Assembly (NCBI GenBank): GCA_004100325.1
Contig: SCKX01000001.1
Location: forward strand, 727,453 to 791,452
Direction of reading: 5' to 3'
From: Candidatus Microsaccharimonas sossegonensis
GTDB taxonomy: Bacteria > Patescibacteriota > Saccharimonadia > Saccharimonadales > Saccharimonadaceae
Length of the DNA stretch: 64,000 nt
The first letter of the stretch is position 1, and each line of letters opens with the position of its first letter. The translations under genes and the position numbers were made by a program. The notes under the pieces were generated by a model that saw only the letters and a list, made by a program, of their open reading frames with translations, did no database searches and was not told the DNA's origin. This document shows, piece by piece, positions 61,990 to 64,000 of the stretch.

Positions 61990-62065
61990 TGGTGCGGGTA
62001 CAGGGACTCTAACCCTGGACCTCGTCCTTGGCAAGGACGCGCTCTAACAGCTGAGCTACACCCGC
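61990..62065 (-). tRNA. tRNA-Gly (anticodon GCC)
   Basis: A 76-base gene with CCA encoded. Acceptor GCGGGTG pairs with TACCCGC, anticodon stem CGTCC/GGACG with loop TTGCCAA gives GCC. The T-loop reads TTAGAGT where TTCGAxT is usual, a departure in an otherwise sound cloverleaf. Confidence 0.9.
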
Positions 62066-62226
62066 ATGTGTATTTGCTACGGTCTCATATTGTCAAAATG
62101 ATTGCCTTCTAGTGTCGTCCTTGGCCTGGCAAGTTCGGTCACGTTCCGCGACCCCGAAACATTCATACTGTCAACAAGTTTACAATCTGAATGATTTCCT
62201 TGCGATCTGCCATTTGGCAAATCTCA

Positions 62227-62253
62227 CTCTAACAGCTGAGCTACACCCGCATG
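62227..62253 (-). pseudogene. 5'-half copy of tRNA-Gly
   Basis: 27 bases are identical to 62042-62068, covering the acceptor 5' strand and D arm of the intact tRNA-Gly 185 bases away. The following sequence keeps TTTGCCAAA but cannot fold into a proper anticodon stem, and no T arm is seen. A TATACT box lies just upstream on the minus strand, so it may be co-transcribed with the intact gene. Confidence 0.75.
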
Positions 62254-62395
62254 CTCTAAAAGTATAAAGAAAAGGCAATATTATTTCAAGCCTAGTATAA
62301 AACAGTAGCCTCGTTTATGAGGCTACTTGATGGGTTCGTTTTTGGTGCGATTTTACAACGAGGCTCGAACCATTTTCGAGCAAAGCGAGTGATCC

Positions 62396-62548
62396 GAGCC
62401 GCGCCGCCTAGCACGGCAAGCCGTGCTGCGCCCCACCAGAAAAACCCTTTGTATTTTTGAGATTTCCCCCCGCCGTATTTCTTTTTTAGTTGAAAAGGGT
62501 GTTTCTGGTGGTTCGCCTACTGCAAAAGCAGTAGAGGCGGCGCGGCTC
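62396..62548. repeat. 153-base cloverleaf-like compound inverted repeat
   Basis: The outer arms GAGCCGCGCCGCCT (62396-62409) and its exact complement (62535-62548) enclose three further stems with almost no unpaired bases at the junction. The left hairpin is AGCACGGCaaGCCGTGCT (62410-62427). The central stem is GCG plus CCACCAGAAAAACCCTTT (62428-62450) with 62494-62516, holding one mismatch and a two-base internal loop. The right hairpin is CTACTGCaaaaGCAGTAG (62517-62534). The central loop is 43 bases and pyrimidine-rich. Confidence 0.8.
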
Positions 62549-62740: not shown

Positions 62741-63529
62741 CTACGGCGCATTTGGCGCAAAGTCGATCGGATTAGGTGAAGCAGGCTCTAGCACAACTGG
62801 TTTACTCGCAGAATACTCACGCATTGCCTCATAAACATCACCATTATTTGCATTAAACGCCTTTCCATTTGCGATAAAAGCCGCCATAGCACCCTTAGCA
62901 ATCATTACATCATTAAATGGGTCTTCTTTGTGCGTAGTGCGATTGAGTTCTCTAAGTATTTGATTTATGTCGGTGCTTTGTCCGTCGATGATATATGCAC
63001 CGATGTTAATCAGGTCATCTTCTGTAGTTTCATCGACACGCTCCCAGTTTTCGACAGTCGCTCCATCATCAGCAAGATTGAAACGTGCGCCGCTTTTAGC
63101 AGCTACGCTTGGCGCAACAAGGATAGACACAGGCTTACCGTGTTCATTATGAAAATCACGGAACTCCTCCCACGAGAAATCAGCCCAAAAGTCAGCTGCA
63201 GCCATATACGATTGTTTTTCTGTACGGAGTGCATCAAGGTAGATTGGTCCGAGTGGCCCAATCACATTGCGGTTTACTAGCAAGTCAATATCACGAGGTA
63301 AATCAGGAACTTCACCAATACCGCGCACCGTATCGTAGTTACCATATATGGCGACTCGCCCCAGGGGCATCGCCTGTCGAGTAATTCGACCTATCAGACT
63401 TTCTCCAGCACCAGTCGGCAGGGCAGACTTTGGCGTCCCCTCAGCAAAGCCGGCCTCGTGCATCCAGCTTCTGATTCGTGTCGCTTGTCCAGCAGCTGAA
63501 ATTGTTACATGTTCGTTATTAAGCTTCAT
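62741..63529 (-). CDS. Nucleotidyltransferase-like (NTP_transferase/GT-A fold) protein, substrate unknown
   Basis: The 262-residue protein opens ISAAGQATRIRSWMHEAG and PKSALPTGAGESLIGRITRQ. This recalls the AAGxGxRxxPxT...PKxLLPVxxxPLI pattern of nucleotide-sugar pyrophosphorylases, with the glycine-rich loop altered (GQATRI). RDIDLLVNRN resembles the metal-binding Asp region. The C-terminal third is unlike known enzymes. The ATG at 63529 has an AGAGGA Shine-Dalgarno and overlaps the end of the upstream kinase gene by 11 bases, so the two are coupled. I cannot name the product. Confidence 0.6.
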   Translation of the reverse strand: MKLNNEHVTISAAGQATRIRSWMHEAGFAEGTPKSALPTGAGESLIGRITRQAMPLGRVAIYGNYDTVRGIGEVPDLPRDIDLLVNRNVIGPLGPIYLDALRTEKQSYMAAADFWADFSWEEFRDFHNEHGKPVSILVAPSVAAKSGARFNLADDGATVENWERVDETTEDDLINIGAYIIDGQSTDINQILRELNRTTHKEDPFNDVMIAKGAMAAFIANGKAFNANNGDVYEAMREYSASKPVVLEPASPNPIDFAPNAP

Positions 63530-64000
63530 TATTCCTCTTTTCAATTGCAAGTCGCTCTAGCAGGCTGCGTATCTGGCTAACATTGTCGTCGACATTCTCA
63601 TCGTTGTTATCCAGAATAGTTAGTCGATTGCCGACATGCCGTGCGAGCGCCTTCATCATTTCTAGTTTACGAGCTTGTATATAGTCGATTTCATCGACGC
63701 TTAGTTCTGTGGTCTTTCGTTCACCTCGCATATTACGCTCGTGTACGCGCTCTGCGATAAGCTTGGGGTCAGCCCTCACAAAAAGATAGTCAGACGGATC
63801 AAGCTCTTTCTCGATATCCCAGTTGACATATTCTATGCCATGTTCGATTTTGGCTGGGTGGCTCGTAACAATCGCTGGCTGCAACTTTATCACCCTCTGT
63901 ATAATCTTCTTCTGAATTGCCGCCGTTCGTTCATCGTCTGGCGTAAAGTTGTCAACAATAGTATCTTTGTCTTGTTTTGCGAACTCGCCAAAGAAATCAC
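63519..64000 (-). CDS. Adenylate-kinase-like P-loop kinase, C-terminal part (gene runs off the window)
   Basis: The frame stays open to the window edge; 160 residues are visible. They show VTSHPAKIEHGIEYVNW, DYLFVRADPKLIAERVHERN with the lid-type Arg residues, and a helical end, a layout like archaeal-type adenylate kinases (AAA_17/AAA_33). The P-loop would lie beyond position 64000 and is not visible. It overlaps the nucleotidyltransferase-like gene, so the pair may act on nucleotides or nucleotide sugars. Confidence 0.65.
   Translation of the reverse strand, partial: DFFGEFAKQDKDTIVDNFTPDDERTAAIQKKIIQRVIKLQPAIVTSHPAKIEHGIEYVNWDIEKELDPSDYLFVRADPKLIAERVHERNMRGERKTTELSVDEIDYIQARKLEMMKALARHVGNRLTILDNNDENVDDNVSQIRSLLERLAIEKRNNEA

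Follow-up and report, generated by a model that had tools for sequence, protein, structure and literature searches.

A conserved four-way junction at the cargo edge of a candidate serine-integrase element inserted at tRNA genes in Saccharibacteria

A four-way junction beside tRNA-Gly

The window, by which we mean the whole stretch of 64,000 nucleotides that was analyzed, belongs to a Saccharibacteria-like genome of 0.81 Mb in 6 contigs (G000) and lies on its main contig (C1). A tRNA-Gly(GCC) gene occupies positions 61990 to 62065 on the minus strand; it is a chromosomal neighbor that directly adjoins tRNA-Phe in relatives lacking the element described below. Just outside that element is a terminator-like hairpin (62304 to 62327, minus strand), and similar hairpins flank attR in relatives and adjoin tRNA-Phe in members of the genus. 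The attR core, placed at 62342 to 62349 by comparison of junctions (plus strand, TTGGTGCG), forms the outer boundary of the element, and its complement, CGCACCA/A, corresponds to the discriminator base plus CCA. From the same position runs a copy of an integrase C-terminal tail (62342 to 62389, plus strand, LVRFYNEARTIFEQSE, with the stop codon TGA at 62390 to 62392), which, in a predicted circular form, would continue the integrase reading frame. The four-way junction follows on the plus strand at 62396 to 62548. Beyond it are the first two cargo open reading frames (ORFs), on the minus strand: one of 269 amino acids (62741 to 63550) with no match in Pfam, PADLOC, or NCBIfam, and one of 208 amino acids (63519 to 64000), AAA_17 nucleotide-kinase-like, that runs past the window end.

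Some 190 bp from the intact tRNA-Gly gene, a partial copy of its 5′ half is found at 62219 to 62252 (CTCTAACAGCTGAGCTACACCCGCATG), possibly a pseudo-tRNA or the trace of an earlier insertion; genome G016 has a broken tRNA-Gly copy near the corresponding site. We rejected this partial copy as attR, given that T, defined below, has its boundary at 62342 and the element targets tRNA-Phe.

The 153-base inverted repeat that a sequence-only reading had placed at 62396 to 62548 has the coordinates and anatomy reported, and it folds as drawn (folding, covariation, and a covariance-model match of 171.9 bits). The outer stem P1 pairs all 14 bp of 62396 to 62409 with 62535 to 62548. Hairpin H1 (62410 to 62427) has 7 bp and the loop CAAG, or 8 bp with a loop of 2 nt, and hairpin H2 (62517 to 62534) has 7 bp and the loop AAAA. 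Between them, the central stem C (62428 to 62516) consists of 3 bp, a 2×2 internal loop, 10 bp, one mismatch, and 7 bp. No base is left unpaired where the arms meet; the sequence-only reading drew a central stem of about 20 bp and did not stress the apical loop of C, which spans 43 nt (62451 to 62493, plus strand) and carries the conserved motif TTTTTGAGATTTCCCCCCGCCG.

The folding energy is far better than that of shuffled sequence, as the reading had proposed to check. The plus strand folds as RNA at −86.2 kcal/mol (200 dinucleotide shuffles, −46.1 ± 4.1; z = −9.76), the minus strand gives z = −9.94, and DNA parameters give −52.6 (shuffles, −21.4; z = −9.84). In each of the three tests, 0 of the 200 shuffles equaled the junction. 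A chance origin of the fold is ruled out by these values (z around −9.8).

Two further checks, on additional copies in the genome and on homologues with compensatory changes, also came out in favor of the repeat. One further copy exists, on the opposite strand 5.9 kb away (G000:C1:795863-795961); it is 99 bp long, 100% identical, and stops exactly at the end of C1. Homologues have compensatory changes: across 12 full junction ends, 25 of the 48 pairs are changed on both sides, including 7 of 7 in H1 and 7 of 7 in H2 (14 together). In the same ends, 91.4% of the pairing cells are paired (79.1% in shuffles), and covariation scores 0.389, compared with 0.156 ± 0.013 in shuffles and a maximum of 0.118 when partners are slid. 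RNAalifold recovered H1 and part of C alone from a poorly aligned set of repeats, and the remainder once that set was trimmed to full junction ends. Judged by this covariation, the junction is evolutionarily conserved and under selection.

A covariance model of the junction matches 36 of the 393 genomes of the order. It also has weaker-scoring matches in other classes of the phylum, with E-values that are rough owing to a shortened calibration; there the sequence differs, the fold is the same, and the integrase tail motif is kept at several loci. In many Saccharibacteria elements, the complete junction is present at one end only. A scan for the apical motif across one genome per species found true relatives in records labeled Candidatus Saccharibacteria and in a few vaguely or doubtfully labeled bins, of which L048 (“Acinetobacter sp.”) is probably misbinned. 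Matches outside Saccharibacteria at L021, L022, L025, L028, L031, L032, L034, L038, L043, L046, L049, and L052 had no flanking similarity at all and were set aside as chance. A single-cell genome of oral TM7 taxon 348 contains T ends, defined below, and a degraded integrase (L029, 1778 to 5347), which extends the element family into the human oral microbiome.

Element layout and target sites

By comparison with relatives, the junction is almost certainly the inner half of a terminal repeat, T, in an integrative element of about 8 kb. In about 25 genomes, the order is tRNA 3′ end / O′-integrase-O / T-cargo-T′ / chromosome. The element thus has two modules, one with the integrase between inverted O repeats and one with the cargo between inverted T repeats, and the O and T repeats are usually 99 to 100% identical within one element. 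Inverted pairs of T enclose 1.2 to 6 kb of cargo in relatives, where the T arms begin at TTGG, finish after the C stem, and measure about 135 to 185 bp, or as much as 358 bp in other classes. One element from another class (L202) has an O of 140 bp and a T of 358 bp, each a perfect inverted repeat. The two T copies of an element are 99 to 100% identical in at least 19 of the 28 elements, and the median identity between elements is 70.6%. In the window, the part of T shared with its inverted copy is 62342 to 62512 (plus strand), demonstrated within this genome for 62414 to 62512, as T′ is cut by the contig end, and taken from homologous elements for the outer part. The sequence-only reading had offered a mobile repeat or a recombination site among its options, which pointed in the right direction; the fold turns out to occupy the inner portion of the terminal inverted repeat T, whose outer edge is the integrase attachment site.

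The attL, O/T, and attR junctions, compared in 10 elements (attR incomplete in one), read tRNA...NCCA/O′, O/NGGT...T, and T′...NCCA/chromosome. They have in common a core of 4 to 6 bp made of the discriminator base of the tRNA and CCA. Eight isotypes serve as targets (Arg, Phe, Leu, Met, Gln, Val, Gly, and Lys). The chromosomal flank of attR is usually a terminator hairpin in the elements compared, as expected if insertion parted the tRNA from its own terminator, and the hairpin at 62304 to 62327 probably served as the terminator of tRNA-Phe before the insertion moved the two apart. The integrase C terminus faces the tRNA 3′ end in all 24 integrases with a nearby tRNA (24/24), and because of this uniform direction we dropped free inversion of the integrase module.

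The layout in relatives predicts a recombinase past the end of C1. We found it at the opposite end of the contig: C1 ends in T′ and starts with O-recombinase-O′ followed by tRNA-Phe, whose 3′ end points toward the element. With a single element spanning both of its ends (C1:795961 and C1:1), the main contig very likely represents an almost closed circle that the assembly broke within the T′ palindrome. The T′/O junction of this genome was lost to the assembly break, so that we infer its adjacency; in a second species, the same element is contiguous at tRNA-Phe on a single contig (L026/L027). Five members of the genus have tRNA-Gly adjoining tRNA-Phe with no element between them, a gene order that supports an empty site. 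The element data come mostly from MAGs, and one locus (L110) holds a tandem array of elements.

Two remnants without an integrase (L019, 6282 to 6405; L017, 6109 to 6233) have their two O ends joined as a palindrome of about 125 bp between the tRNA and T. Such a palindrome is a miniature form derived from the integrase module.

The enclosure of cargo without a transposase by inverted T pairs could also be explained if an ordinary nonautonomous transposon, mobilized by an unseen transposase, had T as its terminal inverted repeat. We regard this as highly improbable, since one T boundary is fixed at the integrase module, which itself sits at the tRNA 3′ CCA, the outer part of T encodes the integrase tail, and the core is constant. 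T as a transposon end with target duplication was likewise rejected, given that the T flanks have no common direct repeat beyond the core.

The integrase tail and a proposed mechanism

Both integrases that were scanned have the domains PF00239 and PF07508, and the integrase of L015 also has PF13408; by these domains, the enzyme is a large serine recombinase. Its best NCBIfam match is CcrB, at 114.9 bits and thus below the cut-off of 900. At every O/T boundary, the reading frame of the integrase crosses the core and ends, before a stop codon, in a conserved tail of 16 residues (LVxFYxxARTxF...). Accordingly, the first 51 nt of T are the code of the native integrase C terminus, and the four-way junction begins 3 nt past the stop. 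The earlier statement that no protein gene explains the repeat is correct for 62396 to 62548, although the 51 nt before it are integrase coding sequence. Across 52 distinct tails, the codons for Tyr, Arg, and Thr never change at coding positions but vary at synonymous ones, and L110 provides a natural intact integrase ORF that reads through O into the T tail. Because the frame passes through O into T, we dropped the idea that O and T are separate insertions lying side by side.

An in-frame tail across O/T places the attachment site within the coding sequence of the integrase, where integration would swap the native tail for codons of the antisense tRNA. In integrated copies, the tail is indeed read from the antisense tRNA, for example as LVAPPRLELGTQGSSGLCSTS in the genome of the window.

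We propose that the large serine integrase recombines attP (T/core/O) with attB (tRNA 3′ end/terminator). In the predicted circle, two identical inverted T/core/O sites would part the integrase half from the cargo half, and recombination through the site within the integrase gene would yield both the observed order and the tail swap. An integrative element whose serine integrase acts at tRNA 3′ ends, with the junction at the inner edge of T, is the overall explanation that we consider probable. The other attP site would be expected to be just as usable, yet its outcome was never seen. Given two identical attP sites per circle and yet one integrase orientation in integrants, we hypothesize that loss of the native tail locks the integrated state: integrants with a native tail would re-excise or flip, recombining until the tail is swapped and the element locked. 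As derived from these sequence patterns, the lock has about an even chance of being right, and the uniform orientation could stem from another cause.

A further reading, compatible with the explanation preferred here, is that the inverted modules are there to be exchanged, as in a naturally occurring recombinase-mediated cassette exchange: the two inverted attachment sites bounding each module would allow cargo or integrase to be swapped by a double crossover. Inverted cores do bound every module, the cargo is highly varied, T and T′ are unlike in some elements (78% identity in L017; L019), and L110 has its tandem array. However, gene conversion would account equally well for the T pairs, most of which are identical, and serine integrases normally pair attP with attB only. 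We consider cassette exchange rather unlikely. The broadest proposal is a phylum-wide family of self-locking serine integrases, with attP in the integrase gene in two inverted copies, tRNA insertion that swaps the tail, and a cruciform at the cargo edge that acts in recombination, conversion, or cassette exchange; we advance it tentatively, with somewhat less than even confidence.

Action of the junction, related systems, and cargo

If an RNA strand were selected, G.U pairs would be expected far above A.C pairs. Across 89 distinct ends, the counts of G.U (G.T in DNA) to A.C are 61:75 in P1, 12:12 in H1, 12:16 in H2, and 69:32 in C, and in the 12 curated ends they are 5:9 in P1, 0:2 in H1, and 0:0 in H2. 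The lack of a G.U bias in P1, H1, and H2 favors selection at the DNA level and leaves the C stem doubtful, the 2:1 surplus of G.T over A.C there being mildly RNA-like. P1 is not followed by a run of T, which means that the junction is not an ordinary terminator, and a scan of the window at the Rfam gathering thresholds returned tRNAs only, with no family at the junction. The junction is probably not a stand-alone RNA gene, and the structured-RNA option of the sequence-only reading is not supported. These comparisons lead us to favor, with modest confidence, action at the DNA level.

The junction could still be a structured RNA as the 3′ untranslated region of the integrase mRNA of the circular form, stabilizing or attenuating the transcript. 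It would then be well placed, starting 3 nt past the native stop codon, and both the conserved sequence of the apical loop and the pair counts in C would suit such a role. We judge this quite unlikely, because an inverted copy of the same structure is retained at the attR end with no integrase upstream, and because the pair counts in the other three stems, the lack of a U-run, and the Rfam result speak against it.

As DNA, the junction may be extruded as a cruciform, or folded while the element is single-stranded, and may, less certainly, show its conserved apical loop to a protein. Extrusion from duplex DNA is made more costly by the 43-nt loop. A large conserved loop forms more readily on a single strand, the hairpins are near-perfectly Watson-Crick with no strand bias, and each module is flanked by long perfect inverted repeats, all of which would suit an oriT or an element for uptake of single-stranded DNA. 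The inverted O/T copies would then anneal into a duplex attP, with a relaxase or the integrase recognizing the hairpins. No relaxase or replication genes were recognized among the cargo proteins scanned, however, and we consider this specific role unlikely. The junction probably helps as a DNA fold where the cargo module ends, and may mark that boundary, serving either to bind a protein or while the element is single-stranded; its exact role we infer from the arrangement described above.

Several known systems share part of this architecture. The closest in enzyme is the staphylococcal cassette chromosome (SCC), in which the large serine recombinase Ccr puts a cargo island at the 3′ end of a fixed gene; CcrB is also the top NCBIfam match. 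Unlike SCC, the present element targets tRNA 3′ ends, has modules flanked by inverted repeats and attP within the recombinase gene, and falls short of the Ccr cut-off. In the yeast 2-micron plasmid (Flp/FRT), two inverted recombination sites divide a circle into two unique regions, as two identical inverted sites would in the predicted circle, but the recombinase is of another class and the element here is integrative. Integron attC sites, which surround small gene cassettes, are likewise hairpin-rich recombination-associated DNA with a conserved fold. They are direct repeats used by a tyrosine integrase, whereas here the pairs are inverted, the integrase is a serine enzyme, and the fold lies beside the att core rather than being the core itself. 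The likeness to viral terminal hairpins that the sequence-only reading had raised did not hold: unlike a parvovirus-like terminal hairpin, the junction belongs to a chromosomal element integrated at tRNA genes with cellular cargo, and a scan of viral contigs for the apical motif gave zero matches, on which ground we rejected a virus or phage identity.

The closest systems in logic alter a gene on integration. Archaeal “suicidal” integrases (SSV1, pTN3, and pT26-2), which are tyrosine recombinases split in two and are described as exclusively archaeal (PMC8371274), have the attachment site within the integrase gene. In contrast, the enzyme here is a large serine recombinase from bacteria (Saccharibacteria/Patescibacteria), its last 16 codons are swapped, and both modules have inverted repeats. 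In the integration-dependent immunity of mycobacteriophages such as BPs, the repressor gene is altered by a tyrosine integrase with a 35-bp core (PMC9262239). There, too, attP is in a coding gene, attB is at a tRNA gene, and the protein C terminus is changed, but in our case the altered gene is that of the integrase, which is of the serine type and has a core of 4 to 6 bp. None of the systems compared has all of these features together, and literature searches outside subscription journals and preprints found no description of such an element or architecture.

The element runs counter to the view that integrases targeting their own gene are exclusively archaeal (PMC8371274). It also runs counter to the view that serine integrases avoid tRNA genes, which those of mycobacteriophages are stated not to use (PMC9262239). 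Because the core keeps the discriminator base and CCA of the target, the family would offer a naturally occurring set of serine integrases whose tRNA targets can be predicted, useful for engineering, and the tail swap together with a covarying putative cruciform would open the control of integration to direct tests. Little is known of how genes are acquired in the Candidate Phyla Radiation, and for this group the element would provide a definite mobile element with exact ends, a target rule, and cargo.

The remaining cargo of the window's element, on C1 up to T′ at C1:795961, comprises cupin, FBP_C (FusB-like zinc finger), PPDK_N, and HIT proteins. The FBP_C ORF (L003, 6146 to 6688; G000:C1:792145-792687) has the zinc finger of FusB-type EF-G-binding proteins. 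Other elements carry an alcohol dehydrogenase, an EamA transporter with a retron-type reverse transcriptase, or an acetyltransferase. A retron-type reverse transcriptase is Saccharibacteria cargo at L016 (8270 to 9130; best PADLOC match, RT_VI), and at L182 (4704 to 8540), a type II restriction-modification set, Vsr, and an OLD/GajA-like ATPase lie between perfect T repeats of 289 bp.
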